A DNA stretch of 64,000 nucleotides. Source: Saccharibacillus kuerlensis DSM 22868. GTDB taxonomy: Bacteria > Bacillota > Bacilli > Paenibacillales > Paenibacillaceae. Below are positions 12,930 to 23,981 of the stretch, piece by piece. Location of the stretch: NCBI RefSeq assembly GCF_000378145.1, contig NZ_KB899277.1, forward strand, positions 434,001-498,000, written 5' to 3'. A program made the position numbers and the translations under genes. The notes under the pieces were generated by a model. It had not been told where the DNA came from. It did no database searches and was given only the letters and a program-made list of their open reading frames with translations. Numbering within the stretch: the first letter of the stretch is position 1; the number at the start of each line of letters is the position of its first letter.

Positions 12930-14009
12930 CTAGCGATTTGCGATCCGATCGACCATAACCGACAAATGCTGGGACAGATCCACTTCATACGGTTGAATGC
13001 TGGCCCCTTCCGCATCTTCGATCACACGCACAATTGGACGGTTTGGCGTTTTGGATGGCACCCTTGTCACAACGCCGGTTTCTCCGGTGCTGAGTCTGAC
13101 CGTCAACCCTACTGGATAGAGTGCCACTTTATCACGAAATACCTCCAACTTGCGCTGGTCATATTGTGTGCAGGAACCGCCATATAGAATATCTACGGCT
13201 TGATGCGGCAGCATGCCGGACCGGTATACCCGATTTGTAGTCATTGCATCATAAGAATCCGTAATGGCAATCCACTTGGCAAAATCGTGAATTTCGCTGC
13301 CGGCAATCCCACGCGGATATCCGCTGCCATCCAACCGTTCATGATGCTGAAAAGCGCAGTGAGCAGCAAGCAGCGGTACGAAAGGTTCGTCTTTCAATAT
13401 GGCAAACCCATATTCCGTATGGCGCTTCATTTCCGCAAATTCTTCGTCGGTGAGCTTGCCGGACTTTAGCAGCACCTTGGGAGAAATTCTCGTTTTTCCT
13501 ATATCATGCAGCATCGAACCCATACCTATTGTAAACAGATCATCCCGCGAATACCCTGCCGCCATTCCAAGCGTCAGCGTGTATAGACATACGTTAAACG
13601 AATGCGTGTACAAATAATGATCCGTTGTATGAATATCACCGAGCATAATTAAAACATCTTCTCTCGATCCTAAATCGTTTAAGATTTCTTCAGTCATCTT
13701 GCGAAAATTATAGCCCAGATGCGGGTATGAGATCCGCCCCATCGTATCGTTGATCATACTGCGGTAGACGGTTCGGATTTGTTTAATCGCCTGCCGTCTC
13801 GTCTCATCGGTAACCATCTCGGGTACTACAACATCGTCTGTGACTTTATCTTGGACGTAAAGCATATCTACACCGAGCTTCTCCAGCCTGCGAAGAATCG
13901 AAGCTGTCAGCTCGGCCCCTTCGGCCAGCAGCGTCAAACCCTCTTCACTATAAATGCGTTTGCCCAGCTTCATGCCGGGCTGTATTTGTCCGATTGACAG
14001 CAGCCGCAC
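12930..14009 (-). CDS. HD-GYP domain protein (putative c-di-GMP phosphodiesterase)
   Basis: A soluble signalling phosphodiesterase expected to hydrolyse cyclic di-GMP. An N-terminal cap (SIGQIQPGMKLGKRIYSEEGLTLLAEG...) precedes the HD-GYP domain. Metal-ligand motif GSMLHDIGKTRIS, the KSGKLTDEEFAEMKRHTEYGF segment and the GYP motif HHERLDGSGYPRG are all intact, so it should be active. I favour a GTG start at 14009, because the upstream ATG (14024) has no site while its own codons form a GGAG 8-10 bases before the GTG. No transmembrane helix or sensor domain is visible. A second copy of this architecture is encoded at 16239-17288. Confidence 0.88.
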   Translation of the reverse strand: MRLLSIGQIQPGMKLGKRIYSEEGLTLLAEGAELTASILRRLEKLGVDMLYVQDKVTDDVVVPEMVTDETRRQAIKQIRTVYRSMINDTMGRISYPHLGYNFRKMTEEILNDLGSREDVLIMLGDIHTTDHYLYTHSFNVCLYTLTLGMAAGYSRDDLFTIGMGSMLHDIGKTRISPKVLLKSGKLTDEEFAEMKRHTEYGFAILKDEPFVPLLAAHCAFQHHERLDGSGYPRGIAGSEIHDFAKWIAITDSYDAMTTNRVYRSGMLPHQAVDILYGGSCTQYDQRKLEVFRDKVALYPVGLTVRLSTGETGVVTRVPSKTPNRPIVRVIEDAEGASIQPYEVDLSQHLSVMVDRIANR

Positions 14010-14123
14010 AAACTTCCACTCCATTTAAGCCGTCTCGTAGTCCGGATCCTGCGACTGGCACTTCCGGTGGCGAGGGCCGTTTATATTTTGAACTCAATCT
14101 CCAAAATGGTACCGTCCGGCACC

Positions 14124-15560
14124 TCAGGCGCGAATCCATCGGCAAGAAGAAGCTTCTTGCGCCGCACCCGGACGCCCCAGTTCCATACGCAGCAAATCCC
14201 GCAAGAATTCAGGCAAAATAAACGTTTTATCTGTCCCCCGACTTAACGATTCATAACCGGCACCGAATGTAAACATATCCAGCGTACCGACTCGGTATTC
14301 TTCATTTGGCTCAATCTTTCGCCCGGAAGTCCGAGCTTCGAGAATTCGAGAATATGCAGGAGCCTCTGGATCAAACAAAATTGTCAATCCGTCTGCACAC
14401 AACCCGCCCAACCTTTCTCCGCGAAATCCAAATCCGGTCAGTTTCTTACCTGTGTATTCCGGCAGCAGCGATTGTTCAAGACTTCGCAGAATATCGCTGC
14501 CTCTCAGCGTAACGACACAGGGATTGATAGGCGACGGACATAGAGCATGCAGCATTCCTTCGGTAATTTCTCCAGGTGGGAGCGGTCCCAGTACCTGGCC
14601 GGAATTAACAAGAGAAAATTCACCGCCAGCAAAACGCCGAACCGACTGGGCAAGCAAATTGCCGAGTTCGGATTCATGTTCGTAATCGACTGCCAGTTCG
14701 CATTCCGATACCGCAGCTGTACGCTGCAGTCGATAAGCCGCATCTTCATGATGCCGCTTGATTGCGCGGTCAACCTCAGAATCTGACACTGCTGATTCGT
14801 CGAGTTCGATCAATCCAGCCTCCCGTATCCTGCAAGTTCCTGAAACGGGATTACGCTCAATAACAATTCGCCCGATATGACGTCCAAACTTACCTGCCGC
14901 ACACACAAGAGTCTGTCCGATTGCAATCGGTTCCGCAAGCAGATGATGCGTATGGCCTCCCAATATAAGATCGATGCCTTCAATCATACCCGCAATTCGT
15001 TCATCCGAAGCCAAGCCCAGATGAGAAAGCAAAATGACAATATCCGCATGCATACGCAGTTCATTCACCCGGTCCTGTAAGGCAAAAAATGGATCGGACA
15101 CTTCAACCCCCAATAAACGATAAAAATCGGAGAAAGGTGCAGTGAGTCCCAATATGCCGATTCGAAAACCTCCGGTATTGACAATCGCAGTTTCTTGAAG
15201 CCAATCCGGCAGGGTGCCATCTGCCATCCGCACATTTCCGCATACAACGGGGCATTTTAAGGAGGCGTAAATTTCTCCGAGACGCTCCGGTGTGAAGGTT
15301 AAGCCCTCATTATTACCGATCGTTATAGCATCATAACCGGAACGGTTCAAAATATCGACATTCGCCGATCCCAGACTGCCTTCCGTTTCGATGGCCATCC
15401 GATCCATATGGTCGCCTACATCGAGCGTGCACACTGGTCTTCCCAGCGATTTTTCTGCAGCGATAAAAGCGGCGATTCGGCCCATCTGCTCAAAGTGACT
15501 ATGAATGTCGTTAGTATGCAGAATCGTCAGCGTATTTTGCTCTTCTGTCTTTGAGCCCAT
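14124..15560 (-). CDS. yunD: YunD-like metallophosphatase/5'-nucleotidase
   Basis: Two-domain UshA-type phosphohydrolase. The N-terminal calcineurin-like domain shows the metal motifs LHTNDIHSHF, DVGDHMDRM, IGNNE and LGGHTHH. The C-terminal nucleotidase domain, about residues 290-450, includes NSGQVLGPLPPGEITEG and YRVGTLDMFTFG. There is no signal peptide, so like YunD it appears cytosolic, unlike the secreted 5'-nucleotidases. Substrates (nucleotides or UDP-sugars) are not established. The ATG follows AAAGGAGGACG. It is encoded on the same strand and upstream of the HD-GYP gene at 12930. Confidence 0.88.
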   Translation of the reverse strand: MGSKTEEQNTLTILHTNDIHSHFEQMGRIAAFIAAEKSLGRPVCTLDVGDHMDRMAIETEGSLGSANVDILNRSGYDAITIGNNEGLTFTPERLGEIYASLKCPVVCGNVRMADGTLPDWLQETAIVNTGGFRIGILGLTAPFSDFYRLLGVEVSDPFFALQDRVNELRMHADIVILLSHLGLASDERIAGMIEGIDLILGGHTHHLLAEPIAIGQTLVCAAGKFGRHIGRIVIERNPVSGTCRIREAGLIELDESAVSDSEVDRAIKRHHEDAAYRLQRTAAVSECELAVDYEHESELGNLLAQSVRRFAGGEFSLVNSGQVLGPLPPGEITEGMLHALCPSPINPCVVTLRGSDILRSLEQSLLPEYTGKKLTGFGFRGERLGGLCADGLTILFDPEAPAYSRILEARTSGRKIEPNEEYRVGTLDMFTFGAGYESLSRGTDKTFILPEFLRDLLRMELGRPGAAQEASSCRWIRA

Positions 15561-16238: not shown

Positions 16239-17288
16239 TTGAAAGTTCACGTTACAGATCTTAAGCCTGGCGATCGCCTGATTGCCGATACCTTCAACCG
16301 GCACGGTGTGCATATTCTCGCGAAGGGAACAGCATTGCACGATGCGGAAATCGCCCGCTTGGTCCAGCATAGTATAGACTATGTCGAAGTTCATACTTCT
16401 ATGCAAGAGGTTTACTCCAATGCTAGTTCCGCCGCCTATTTCTTCCCTGAAATCAAATCGACATTTGACGACGCCATTCTAATGTTCGAATCGCTGTTTC
16501 ATGAATCGATGACGACAGGAAGTTTTAACAGCGAACTTGTTGAAGACATCATGCAGCCTTTATTTAACGTACTGGCTTCTCAAAAAGATGCTGTTGCGCT
16601 TCTCCTGCTTCTTAACCGGGACGCCAACTACACGTATGTACATTCCATGCAAGTCGGTATGCTGTCTTACTATCTTGCACTTTGGCTTGGATATCCGCAT
16701 GATGAGGCTTCGCAAATTTGCCAAGCCGGCTATTTGCATGATATCGGCAAATCGACGATTCCAGGAGAAATTCTAAATAAACCGGGTAAACTTACTCGTG
16801 AAGAATACGAAATTGTCAAAATGCATACGGTTAACGGTTATCAAATCATTCGCAACTCTCTTGGTGATACGGTTGCGGCAACTGCAGCTTTACAGCATCA
16901 TGAGCGCGGCGACGGCAGCGGTTATCCTTATGGGATCAAGGAAGAAGAAATGCATCCGTGGTCACGCATTATCGCCGTAGCGGACGTTTACAGTGCCATG
17001 ACCAGCAACCGTGTCTATCAGGATAAGCAGGAACTGATCAATGTGCTGAAGGAATTGTATTCGCTTAGCTTTGGTCAATTGGCTGCAGAACCAACTCATA
17101 CATTTATTCGCAATATGCTTCCTTACTTTATTAACAAGAAAGTTCGCCTGACAAATGGGGAGCACGGTTATATTGTAATGAACCATCCGACCGACTTCTT
17201 CCGACCGTTGGTTCGCGTCAGTGACCGATTTGTCGACCTGTCGATTGAAACTGACCTTAATATTGCGGAAATTTTTTCTGATAATTAA
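16239..17288 (+). CDS. HD-GYP domain protein (second copy)
   Basis: Putative c-di-GMP phosphodiesterase, paralogous to the gene at 12930-14009. It starts at a TTG (16239) preceded by GAAAGGGGA. The N-terminal cap is KVHVTDLKPGDRLIADTFNR. Catalytic motifs are intact: AGYLHDIGKSTIPGEIL, NKPGKLTREEYEIVKMHTVNGY and QHHERGDGSGYPYGI. A short C-terminal beta domain (KVRLTNGEHGYIVMNHPTDFFRPLVRV) matches the equivalent region of the paralogue. There are no membrane segments. It is convergent with the Ntn-hydrolase-like gene, and the two share a terminator. Confidence 0.9.
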   Translation: MKVHVTDLKPGDRLIADTFNRHGVHILAKGTALHDAEIARLVQHSIDYVEVHTSMQEVYSNASSAAYFFPEIKSTFDDAILMFESLFHESMTTGSFNSELVEDIMQPLFNVLASQKDAVALLLLLNRDANYTYVHSMQVGMLSYYLALWLGYPHDEASQICQAGYLHDIGKSTIPGEILNKPGKLTREEYEIVKMHTVNGYQIIRNSLGDTVAATAALQHHERGDGSGYPYGIKEEEMHPWSRIIAVADVYSAMTSNRVYQDKQELINVLKELYSLSFGQLAAEPTHTFIRNMLPYFINKKVRLTNGEHGYIVMNHPTDFFRPLVRVSDRFVDLSIETDLNIAEIFSDN

Positions 17289-17298
17289 TTCAAGACAG

Positions 17299-17336
17299 AA
17301 AAACACGTATCCTTTATCAGCGGATACGTGTTTTTT
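17299..17336. terminator. Bidirectional terminator between convergent genes
   Basis: The perfect hairpin AACACGTATCC / GGATACGTGTT is flanked by A and T runs on both sides. It serves the HD-GYP gene (plus) and the Ntn-hydrolase-like gene (minus). Confidence 0.9.
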
Positions 17337-17338
17337 GA

Positions 17339-17908
17339 TTACCTTTTCAATACAAGCTTAACTGTCGAAGTACTTACATCTTCGTCTTTTGAAGCAACGT
17401 ATCGGTTCAGCAGTTTCTGAGACTGAATCATTGCGCTTGGCGTTTCTGTTCCGGTCTCTTTCCAATAATTCTGAAGCAATTCGTACAGGTTGCCGTACTT
17501 ACCCGCTCCTTCCGCCAGGAAGAAATAAGCAATATCACTGCCTCTCGGTTTCAAATGGCGCTCTGCTCGGCTGTTCGGATCATACGTGCATACTTCGATT
17601 TCACCGCTGGCATTAATTCCACCGAACGCAGTCATTACCGACTTGCCTTTTTCGGAAAAAGCAGCCAGTGTCATCTCCAGAATAACTAAAATCCGGTCAT
17701 AAGGCGTTCCTTCAATCAACAAATCCGAGATGTGCTTGGCAATGACTTCGCGCGCTTCACGGTCTCCACCGGCTGTCGCTACGAATTCTTTCTCTCCCAC
17801 CTTAACGACATGCTGCTCCGGATTTGGTGTAGACTCCGAACCGACAGCCTCGCTATCGCTCATTACGGTTATAAAATTCTCTTTTGCAATTACGGAAATG
17901 AAGCTCAT
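17339..17908 (-). CDS. Proteasome/HslV-like Ntn-hydrolase-fold protein, uncharacterised
   Basis: The 189-residue protein begins MSFISVIAKENFITVMSDSE and reads like a proteasome beta-type subunit whose N-terminal nucleophile is exposed by removal of Met1. Counting Ser2 as position 1, an Asp falls at position 17 (MSDSE), a Lys at 35 (HVVKVG) and an Ala-Gly-Gly at 45-47 (ATAGGD). Proteasome subunits have Asp17, Lys33 and Gly47. Length is close to HslV. The start is firm: AAGGAGG lies 9 bases before the ATG, so Ser2 is reliable. No ATPase partner gene is nearby. The leader (17934-18058) folds into a strong three-way junction. Enzyme activity is inference; I do not recognise a named family. Confidence 0.75.
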   Translation of the reverse strand: MSFISVIAKENFITVMSDSEAVGSESTPNPEQHVVKVGEKEFVATAGGDREAREVIAKHISDLLIEGTPYDRILVILEMTLAAFSEKGKSVMTAFGGINASGEIEVCTYDPNSRAERHLKPRGSDIAYFFLAEGAGKYGNLYELLQNYWKETGTETPSAMIQSQKLLNRYVASKDEDVSTSTVKLVLKR

Positions 17909-17933
17909 TTCTTTATTCCTCCTTCTCTATGGC

Positions 17934-18058
17934 GTGTACGCAAATCCATCATGACGACTGCGAACGGAAGCACAGTCAGTCGTTCGATCTTTAAGCGCAC
18001 CTCCGAAATCCGCTGCTCTGCTCAGCGAGGAAAGCCATGATGCGCCATTTGCGTACAC
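17934..18058 (-). ncRNA. Candidate structured leader RNA (three-way junction)
   Basis: On the minus strand, just upstream of the gene starting at 17908, two arms pair perfectly over 12 bases (GTGTACGCAAAT at 18058-18047 with its complement at 17945-17934). After a small internal loop there are 7 more pairs (CATCATG with CATGATG). Inside lie a hairpin with 7-base arms ACGACTG/CAGTCGT (17983-17954) and a hairpin CCTC-GCTG/CAGC-GGAG (18030-18000). The 3' arm ends about 17 bases before the AAGGAGG site. I see no known riboswitch consensus and no terminator. Either a regulatory RNA or a DNA-level inverted repeat. Confidence 0.5.
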
Positions 18059-18426
18059 GTCGTAAGCTAACTAATTCGCGGACTGCGGTCTTTTTTCCTG
18101 CCTGCTCCTCAGAATTAAAAGAAAACGTCAGCTTTCTCAGTATACCAGACGAACTGTCTCTCGGGCGAGTTGAAAAAAGAAGAGCGAATTCGTTCTCAAA
18201 AGAAGAGAATAGAGTGATCGCTACTTTCTTTTACTTCTACTTATGGAATCCTCGACTAATATAGGACTAAGCAGCCAGAAAACGATATAGACTGCCGGTT
18301 TTAGACATTCTATACGCTTCAAATAAAAAGAAGAGAGCCAAAACGAGCTTTTGTAAAACGGTTGCCTGTAATTATTCGTCTATTACACAGGGTTATCCTG
18401 TAGTTGAAAAAGGGGTTGAAGCTCCT

Positions 18427-18726
18427 ATGTTGGGTGAGACGCTGCTTGAAGAAGTTAAAGCTGCCGTTGATCGGTGTGTACAAAAGTCAATATCAGCAAG
18501 AGCAGAGTATTTTGGAGAAATCCGGCAGGCAGATGGCATATTTGAACCCCATGTATTACCTATTTATTCTCCCGTCCAAATTTATGCACAGCTTGAAACA
18601 GCTCTGGGCATTCTCGGCTTCGTATTCAACAATCGAACAAAGCAGCAGCAAGGTGAAATCAAAATCTATTTGAACCAATTACAGATTGCTGTACATAAAG
18701 AAACAAGGAGCAAAAATTCGGAATAA
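18427..18726 (+). CDS. Hypothetical protein (99 aa)
   Basis: A short, largely helical soluble protein (LGETLLEEVKAAVDRCVQKSISARAEYFGEI..., then YSPVQIYAQLETALGILGFVF). I do not recognise it. AAAGGGG lies 11 bases before the ATG, a long but workable spacing. A bidirectional terminator follows within 20 bases, which supports a transcribed gene on this strand. It lies between the Ntn-hydrolase-like gene's leader and sufB, in the opposite orientation to both. An overlapping frame starting at 18404 has poorer composition. Confidence 0.55.
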   Translation: MLGETLLEEVKAAVDRCVQKSISARAEYFGEIRQADGIFEPHVLPIYSPVQIYAQLETALGILGFVFNNRTKQQQGEIKIYLNQLQIAVHKETRSKNSE

Positions 18727-18744
18727 AGTGATTTTTGCAATGAC

Positions 18745-18779
18745 AAAAAAGAGGCGAACCTGTAGGTTCGCCTCTTTTT
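18745..18779. terminator. Bidirectional terminator (99-aa gene / suf operon)
   Basis: The perfect hairpin AGAGGCGAACC / GGTTCGCCTCT with a 4-base loop has A and T runs on both flanks. It ends the plus-strand 99-aa gene and the minus-strand suf operon. Confidence 0.93.
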
Positions 18780-18807
18780 ATACTAACAATTTGCTCGAAA
18801 ATGGTGA

Positions 18808-20205
18808 TTAACCGATCGAACCTTCCATCTCAAACTTGATCAGACGGTTCATTTCGACCGCGTATTCCATCGGCAGTTCCTTCGTGAACGGCTCGATGAA
18901 GCCCATAACGATCATCTGCGTTGCTTCATTCTCGCTGAGACCACGGCTCATCAGGTAGAAGAGTTGATCTTCAGATACCTTCGATACCGTTGCTTCGTGC
19001 TCCAGCATCACATCATCGGTCAGAACTTCGTTGTACGGAATCGTATCCGATGTGGACTGGTTGTCGAGAATCAGCGTATCACACTTGATATTCGACTTGG
19101 CACCCTGCGCCTTACGGCCGAACGAAGCCAGACCTTGATACGTTACTTTGCCGCCGTGTTTACTGATCGACTTGGAAATAATTGTCGACGTCGTATCTGG
19201 AGCCAAGTGGATCATTTTCGCACCCGCATGCTGATGCTGGTCTTTACCGGCAACCGCGATCGACAGAACGGATCCTTTTGCACCGCGTCCCTTAAGCACG
19301 ACAGCTGGATATTTCATCGTCAGCTTGGAGCCGATGTTGCCGTCAACCCATTCCATGTTCGCATTTTCTTCTGCAACCGCACGTTTTGTCACGAGGTTGT
19401 AGATGTTGGACGACCAGTTCTGGATTGTCGTGTAGCGAACGCGTGCGTCCTTCTTCACGATGATCTCAACAACTGCACTGTGCAGGGAGTTCGTACCGTA
19501 TACCGGCGCCGTGCAGCCTTCAACGTAGTGTACGAAGCTGCCTTCGTCGGCGATGATCAGTGTACGTTCGAATTGACCCATGTTTTCCGAGTTGATGCGG
19601 AAGTAAGCCTGCAGCGGAACTTCGCACTTCACGCCTTTTGGCACGTAGATAAAGCTGCCGCCTGACCATACTGCGCTGTTCAATGCTGCAAATTTGTTAT
19701 CAGAAGGTGGAATAACTTTAGCGAAATGCTCTCTCAGGATTTCCGGGTGCTCTTTCAGAGCAGTGTCGGTATCCATGAAGATAACGCCTTGGTCTTCCAA
19801 TTCTTTCTGCATGTTGTGGTAAACGACTTCGGATTCGTATTGGGCAGAAACGCCGGCAAGGAACTTCTGTTCCGCTTCCGGAATACCCAATTTGTTGAAC
19901 GTTTCCTTAATTTCGCTTGGTACTTCTTCCCACGTTTTGCTCTGTCCTTCGGAAGCCTTAACGTAGTATTGGATCTCTTCGAAGTTCAGTTCGCTAAGAT
20001 CGCCGCCCCATGTAGGCATCGGCATCTTCAGGAACTGCTCAAAAGCTTTAAGACGGAAGTCCAACATCCATTCTGGTTCGTTTTTCATTTTCGAAATGGA
20101 AATGACGATTTCTTTTGTCAGACCCAGACCACTTTTGTAAATGGATTCATGCTCGTCGCGGAAGCCATATTGATACTCATCGCTGATCGGTGCTTGTTTA
20201 GCCAT
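18808..20205 (-). CDS. sufB: Fe-S cluster assembly protein SufB
   Basis: Scaffold component of the SufBCD complex, on which nascent Fe-S clusters form. The 465-residue length is normal. Recognisable stretches are [16 protein letters not shown] near the N-terminus, SVWSGG-type [28 protein letters not shown], the beta-helix core, and the C-terminal [22 protein letters not shown] shared with SufD. The ATG follows AAAGGGAGGAATCACC. It is the last gene of sufC-sufD-sufS-sufU-sufB, the usual Firmicute order. Confidence 0.97.
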
Positions 20206-23192: not shown

Positions 23193-23981
23193 TTAAGCTT
23201 CTTGTTCTTGTCCAACTGTCTCGTCGGTAATACCCAGCTCTTCTTTGATCCAGTCATAGCCGTCCTGCTCCAGACGAGCAGCAAGTTCAGGTCCACCGGA
23301 CTTCACGATTCGGCCCTGCATCATGACGTGGACGAAGTCCGGCGTGATGTAGTTCAGCAGGCGCTGGTAGTGGGTAATGATCAAGAAACCACGATCTTCG
23401 TTCTTCATTTCGTTCACGCTGTTCGCTACAATACGCAGAGCGTCAATATCCAGACCGGAGTCAATCTCGTCGAGAATCGCGATTTTCGGATCGAGCATCG
23501 ACATTTGAAGAATTTCATTACGCTTCTTCTCGCCGCCGGAGAAACCTTCGTTCAAGTAACGGTGAGCGAACTCAGGATTCATCTCGAGCCCCTTCATGCT
23601 GCTCTCCATTTGACGGATAAACTTGATCAGCGAGATCTCGTTACCTTCGCCGCGGCGTGCATTGATCGCACTGCGCAGGAAGTCGGAGTTTGTTACGCCG
23701 GCAATTTCGCTCGGATACTGCATCGCGAGGAACAGACCTGCAAGTGCACGCTCATCGACGCCCATTTCAAGTACGTCTTCTCCGTTCAGCGTAGCAGAGC
23801 CTGCTGTTACTTCATATTTCGGATGTCCCATCAGCGCGGAAGCCAGTGTACTCTTACCGGTGCCGTTTGGTCCCATGATCGCATGGATCTCTCCACCGTT
23901 CATTTCCAGGTTGATGCCTTTCAGAATTTCTTTGCCTTCAATCTCCGCCTTGAGTCCTTCGATGACGAATTTAGTTGCCAT
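23193..23981 (-). CDS. sufC: Fe-S cluster assembly ATPase SufC
   Basis: ABC-type ATPase, not a transporter, that drives conformational change in SufBCD. Walker A is GPNGTGKSTLA, the signature is GFSGGEKKRNEILQM and Walker B is AILDEIDSGLDIDAL, followed by the switch histidine in LIITHYQRLL. The 262-residue length is normal. The ATG follows TTGGAGGG. It is the first gene of the operon and lies directly behind the sigma-A promoter and PerR-type box at 24060-24096. Confidence 0.97.
   Translation of the reverse strand: MATKFVIEGLKAEIEGKEILKGINLEMNGGEIHAIMGPNGTGKSTLASALMGHPKYEVTAGSATLNGEDVLEMGVDERALAGLFLAMQYPSEIAGVTNSDFLRSAINARRGEGNEISLIKFIRQMESSMKGLEMNPEFAHRYLNEGFSGGEKKRNEILQMSMLDPKIAILDEIDSGLDIDALRIVANSVNEMKNEDRGFLIITHYQRLLNYITPDFVHVMMQGRIVKSGGPELAARLEQDGYDWIKEELGITDETVGQEQEA

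Follow-up and report, generated by a model that had tools for sequence, protein, structure and literature searches.

The window, a 64,000-nucleotide stretch of Saccharibacillus kuerlensis DSM 22868 (contig NZ_KB899277.1, positions 434,001 to 498,000), carries on its minus strand a coding sequence for a proteasome-like protein of 189 amino acids (17339..17908, ATG start), called on its orthologues, its dN/dS values, and its predicted fold. A Shine-Dalgarno motif, AAGGAGG (17918..17924, minus strand), lies 9 nt 5' of the ATG and occurs in 10/10 aligned Saccharibacillus leaders, bearing out the start that a preliminary description of this DNA had derived from it; alignment of M1-S2 with M1-S2 of phage relatives supports the same start. 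The conserved upstream neighbor is sufB (18808..20205, minus strand; PF01458 and synteny), and the conserved downstream neighbor in Saccharibacillus is a convergent HD-domain gene (16239..17288, plus strand; PF13487). The latter and another HD-domain gene (12930-14024) flank a 5'-nucleotidase-like gene (14124-15560), an order preserved across Saccharibacillus loci. The protein had been described as standing alone, with no ATPase adjoining, and indeed no AAA+ protein was detected among the five neighbors scanned (the two HD-domain proteins, the 5'-nucleotidase, SufB, and the NifU-type SufU); the ATPase SufC (23193-23981, named by eye) is of the ABC type rather than an AAA+ unfoldase. Identity as a known defense gene was rejected (no PADLOC match for 3/3 proteins tried).

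Directly upstream of the Shine-Dalgarno motif lies a 5' leader hairpin (17928..18064, minus strand; arms 17928-17945 and 18047-18064). Its 13-bp core pairs in 93.8% of cells across 10 Saccharibacillus leaders, and 8/13 core pairs show changes on both sides, compared with at most 3 such pairs in slid controls. Covariation was as high in 0/500 shuffles for four of five measures, and the level of further pair types was reached in 45/500. A conserved leader box that includes the 5' arm (18051..18078, minus strand) occurs once in the window, searched with a 28-base pattern, and once in the genome, searched with a 23-base pattern, up to 3 mismatches being allowed. Hairpin and box together (17928-18078) may form a regulatory RNA element; Rfam, searched with 16800-19000, gave two matches, both far below gathering scores. 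A perfect inverted repeat of 14 bp that includes runs of A and T (17299..17335), between the convergent HD-domain gene and the proteasome-like gene, is a probable two-way terminator, and another of 16 bp, also perfect, just 3' of sufB (18746..18779) is a probable suf operon terminator; a terminator scan listed neither. No minus-strand promoter match was found in 17200-18850. The gene is probably transcribed on its own, and the covarying leader hairpin supports its separate, possibly regulated expression. A stem 5' of the gene in locus L107 was not counted with the leader hairpin; it is more simply a suf terminator, because a T-run follows it.

In Saccharibacillus, the gene lies 3' of sufB on the same strand, convergent to the HD-domain gene, in the window and in 8/8 further loci, 6/8 of which show the sufB-gene-HD arrangement within 4 kb. 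The interval from sufB to the gene is 7.4 and 4.0 kb in two loci (L105 and L106); that of L105 holds a sugar ABC transporter-like cluster with regulators (L105:3183-10220, by eye), so this interval tolerates insertions. A second genus (g13) likewise has the gene after sufB on the same strand in 8/8 loci, and in further g13 genomes relatives occupy other positions (L118, L121, L122, and L043). Six of 16 Saccharibacillus genomes have sufB without the gene. Other genes follow sufB there, with the HD-domain gene still present in one (L101), and no remnant was found in the 4 kb from within sufB onward (best E value, 1.8). The SufB proteins of these six are 87 to 88% identical to that of the window, against 95 to 98% in two carriers compared, and the six look like a separate clade, as we infer.

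Among 10 Saccharibacillus genes, dN/dS was 0.03 to 0.20 in 43/45 pairs (the remaining 2 had saturated dS), and the gene is therefore a maintained protein; in the second genus the values were 0.03 to 0.14, two saturated pairs aside. A search of genome contigs returned 8 relatives at 80 to 88% identity, 8/8 from Saccharibacillus records, and the gene was present in 10/59 whole genomes searched, all Saccharibacillus (10/16 genomes of the genus). A family-wide profile search gave a match at an E value of ≤0.001 in 30/394 genomes. Its phylum-wide counterpart gave matches in 5/398 genomes at an E value of ≤0.01, three of which were rejected as chance (short stretches inside frames of 687 to 700 amino acids). 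With profiles, relatives come to light in viral contigs and in further genera of the same family. The preliminary description had spoken of a protein in Bacillales; relatives extend beyond Bacillales chromosomes to phages, viral contigs, and one plasmid record of Bacillota.

The fold was approached with profiles and structure prediction. As a single sequence, the protein had no convincing match in Pfam, in NCBIfam, or among PDB sequences; its weak matches (DUF4075, CadC, a nanobody, and bfr218) were judged to be chance. Profile A4 (12 rows, window protein included) matched proteasome subunits among PDB sequences (best E value, 1.9e-6), the best 60 of its 124 matches at an E value of ≤10 all being proteasome. 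Profile A5 (14 rows, no Saccharibacillus row) reached 6.1e-6 with 59 matches at an E value of ≤10, of which the top 26 were proteasome and the later ones mixed. The Saccharibacillus profile aligned with A5 end to end (hhalign; E value, 1.6e-30), and 4/12 single rows matched PF00227 at an E value of ≤1 (best, 8.4e-6). A first AlphaFold2 model from 10 close rows was set aside (pLDDT, 43). With 19 rows (pLDDT, 87.6; pTM, 0.85), the predicted order of elements was that of a beta subunit (strand pairs, H1-H2, strands, H3-H4, as in the proteasome beta-type sandwich), with pLDDT of <50 at residues 22 to 28, shortly before His33. Foldseek gave 911 PDB matches at an E value of ≤0.001 (best, 2.3e-9; TM up to 0.70 among the matches listed), the best 50 of which were all chains of proteasome entries. 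Against viral models it gave 24 matches at an E value of ≤0.001, most without an informative name; one, from an uncultured Caudovirales phage, was named HslV, and two were named linear amide C-N hydrolase and NRDE family protein. Profile matches, model, and Foldseek together support the beta-type Ntn-hydrolase fold that had been suggested from strand pattern, and membership in the proteasome-like family holds by predicted fold and profile.

Active-site residues were counted in a 43-row L-INS-i alignment, which also gave the tree. Left out were near copies (L071, L073, L074, L079, L081, and L046, the last of L045); L086-L088 and L090, from the same contigs as L078-L081; repeats (L010-L012 and L014-L018, of L001-L008; L021 and L043, identical to L039; and L108, L115, and L116, of L020, L022, and L025); L122, a match without an N-terminus; a more distant Thr2 group (L062, L063, L123, and L124); and other weak matches. 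The 16 phage-associated rows comprise 12 IMG/VR viral-contig rows, two phage records (L067 and L068), L118 (a genome contig with the gene beside a terminase small subunit gene), and L069 (a plasmid record in which the next gene reads, by eye, like a terminase small subunit).

The catalytic triad of the family is Thr1/Ser1, Asp17, and Lys33, with Gly47 at the oxyanion hole, in the account of PMC8665760. Ser2, Asp18, and Ala46-Gly47-Gly48 are present in the translated ORF, as had been noted. Ser2 (codon 17903..17905, minus strand), the putative N-terminal nucleophile, is S in 40, T in 2, and G in 1 of the 43 rows, in keeping with an N-terminal Ser and no propeptide; removal of Met1, which would expose it, is expected. 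Asp18 (proteasome Asp17; codon 17855..17857, minus strand) and Gly47 (proteasome Gly47, oxyanion hole; codon 17768..17770, minus strand) are each conserved in 43/43 rows, and all three residues are kept in 18/18 sufB-linked rows. Asp175 is found in 10/10 Saccharibacillus rows, matched by position only to Asp166 of the family near the C-terminal strand.

The column of proteasome Lys33 behaves otherwise. MAFFT, L-INS-i, and hhalign all place His33 (codon 17810..17812, minus strand) under the Lys of the relatives, a column that falls on a Lys of proteasome beta type 1 in the profile A4 match. It is K in 16/16 phage-associated rows and 5/5 rows without a context call; H in 9 and Q in 1 of 10 Saccharibacillus rows; and K in 2, R in 5, and N in 1 of 8 rows of the second genus, the 18 sufB-linked rows together giving K 2, R 5, N 1, H 9, and Q 1. 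Four other genome rows have K (2; L020 and L119), N (1), and R (1), the assignment of L044 and L045 being less sure because a Lys stands two residues away. On the tree, these states need 6 changes. The preliminary description had counted a complete Ser/Asp/Lys set, which the alignments do not support: the Lys33 column holds His, and Gln in one species. In yeast beta5, as reported in PMC4792962, K33R inactivated the site, K33A with the propeptide expressed separately in trans lost ~83% of activity and kept ~17%, and T1S lost 40 to 45%. PMC8665760 counts alpha subunits, although catalytically inactive, as members of the family on grounds of descent, so a missing Lys33 lowers the case for an active protease and not that for a proteasome-like protein.

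The group to which the protein is closest is found in Bacillota phages and prophages. Its members stand upstream of terminase genes in L076 and L077 (further off in L070). In Bacillus phage SDFMU_Pfc, the gene is flanked by ArpU and terminase; in L075 a tail gene follows it, in L042 an amidase gene lies downstream, and in L040 an integrase gene lies upstream. The neighbors shown for Lacticaseibacillus phage C4.1 are all hypothetical. Searched directly against phages, the window protein gave six matches, all at chance level (E value of 3 or more), and at an E value of ≤0.01 L025 had no plasmid relatives and L022 no phage relatives. The relatives L019, L020, and L021 matched phrog_36497 (E values, 9.8e-6 to 2.2e-6), and L019 and L021 matched phrog_13232 (1.2e-5 and 2.4e-5); the window protein reached no better than 0.082 against phrog_36497, and L022 and L025 no better than 0.11 to 0.16 against phrog_13232. 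By way of these relatives, both families of function-unknown phage proteins, PHROG 36497 and PHROG 13232, are probably proteasome-like. A second, Thr2-type proteasome-like group was seen in apparent prophage surroundings (L062:1477-2139, L063:1483-2085, L123, and L124); of these, L062 and L063 score above the Pfam Proteasome cut-off, and L062 adjoins a ParB-like gene (by eye). Divergent relatives also occur in a different family of the class, in two genomes (L045:1501-2046 and L046:1333-1878), and, with Gly2 for Ser2 and no clear Lys33, make a further candidate pseudo-enzyme.

From these sequence comparisons, the window protein is probably a pseudo-protease, that is, a phage-related proteasome homologue domesticated beside sufB that has lost its general base and is kept for binding; of the alternatives "Ntn-hydrolase or pseudo-enzyme" offered earlier, we judge the latter half the better. 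A homologue of the phage or prophage type would have entered a host chromosome and become fixed beside sufB, Met1 would be removed and Ser2 exposed, and the general base Lys33 would have been replaced in the sufB-linked branch, by His or Gln in Saccharibacillus and by Arg or Asn in most members of the second genus. Purifying selection has kept Ser2, Asp18, Gly47, and the fold. The proteasome-type cleft may then bind a peptide or protein terminus; alternatively, the subunit may assemble with a partner, peptide-bond cleavage being lost or very slow in either case. Catalysis need not be zero, because yeast K33A keeps ~17% of its activity by the report in PMC4792962. Because the tree is unrooted, its branches are long, and the two sufB-linked genera unite with weak support (85/52), the direction from phage to host and a single domestication can only be inferred. 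Against a pseudo-protease, a dead scaffold would not need to keep Ser2, Asp18, and Gly47 as the 18 sufB-linked rows all do, His could serve as the base, and Lys is kept in L020 and L119, outside the sufB-linked set. As a broader and more tentative proposal, Paenibacillaceae-type bacteria may have taken up a phage proteasome homologue, fixed it beside sufB, and dropped its base repeatedly (K to H, later Q; K to R; K to N), the nucleophile, Asp, and oxyanion Gly being retained by selection. This would yield a pseudo-proteasome lineage under selection or else, for Saccharibacillus, an Ntn scaffold bearing a Ser-His-Asp set, and the Lys-bearing phage members would be packaging or late-stage proteases.

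The strongest competing reading, which we regard as possible but rather unlikely, is that of an enzyme whose chemistry has changed: Ser2 would be activated by His33 and Asp18 (Ser-His-Asp on an Ntn scaffold), by water (the case in the K33A proteasome), or by the amino group of Ser2 itself. The presence of Ser2, Asp18, Gly47, and Asp175 in every Saccharibacillus row and of His in all but one is what such an enzyme would show, and the residual activity of yeast K33A (PMC4792962) points the same way; the Gln of one Saccharibacillus lineage and the Arg or Asn of 6/8 second-genus rows do not fit it, Arg being inactive in yeast beta5 in that report.

That linkage to sufB marks an accessory protein of the suf operon, one that takes part in Fe-S cluster assembly or controls it, is improbable. 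The position downstream of sufB on the same strand recurs in two genera, but a terminator-like repeat separates the two genes, the proteasome-like gene has its own leader hairpin, 4.0 and 7.4 kb intervene in two species, and six genomes of the same genus have sufB without it.

The preliminary description had instead proposed a canonical Ser/Asp/Lys enzyme in which Lys36 (codon 17801..17803, minus strand) is the catalytic lysine, "Lys33" of the proteasome; we consider this very improbable. Position 36 is Lys or Arg in 10/10 Saccharibacillus rows, but it is a different column: the alignment from His33 to Gly47 is gapless to L019, L041, L042, and others, whose Lys stands over His33. Conservation of Lys36 in homologues, when checked, failed as well (K 7 and R 3 in the 10 Saccharibacillus orthologues, many residues elsewhere). 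That the protein lacks an Ntn-hydrolase fold and resembles one by chance, as the unconvincing single-sequence searches and the first 10-row model might suggest, is scarcely credible given the A4 and A5 profile matches, the 19-row model, Foldseek, and the end-to-end profile alignment.

Many members of the proteasome-like family are without known function, and the phage packaging and tail regions, together with the side of host sufB, supply a context to test. The related proteins form a natural series at the general base (K, R, N, H, and Q), phage members with Lys included, which lets one ask what the N-terminal nucleophile fold does without a base, and the name proteasome-like could be extended to PHROG 36497 and PHROG 13232. 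In open-licence papers, a literature search found nothing on the window gene, on loss or repeated replacement of Lys33 in such homologues, or on a phage packaging/tail-region or terminase-side context of the relatives; the family is already known, and its phage context and repeated Lys33 replacement were not found in print in that literature.

Among known systems, the 20S proteasome beta subunit (PF00227) shares with the window protein the predicted fold, the order of elements, the N-terminal nucleophile, and the Asp17 and Gly47 columns; it differs in that the window protein has His33 for Lys33, Ser for Thr, no propeptide, and, as a single sequence, no PF00227 match. HslV/ClpQ of the same superfamily is encoded in the same genome by a separate gene (G000:C1:114372-114890; PF00227 E value, 4.7e-28), and the window protein is not HslV, having neither a PF00227 match nor an AAA+ protein among the five neighbors scanned. 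Matches to the HslV profile were weak (probabilities, 22% and 3%; E values, 0.001 and 0.014), the Lys of the relatives falling on the second Lys of the HslV KK pair in this weak alignment. Fuchs, Alva, and Lupas described 22 groups of proteasome homologues in 2021, including the Firmicute clusters FC1-FC5 (PMC8665760), and stated that none of the genomic contexts pointed to a function. As we read its Table 1, phages are marked for PPH, CPH, AAH, PMI-4, and DAH and not for FC1-FC5. One phage-borne group in that work, of ~140 residues, lacks helix H2, whereas our model has H1 and H2. FC1-FC5 are, like the group of the window protein, Firmicute, compact, and without a propeptide and, compared by description, are its likely published home.
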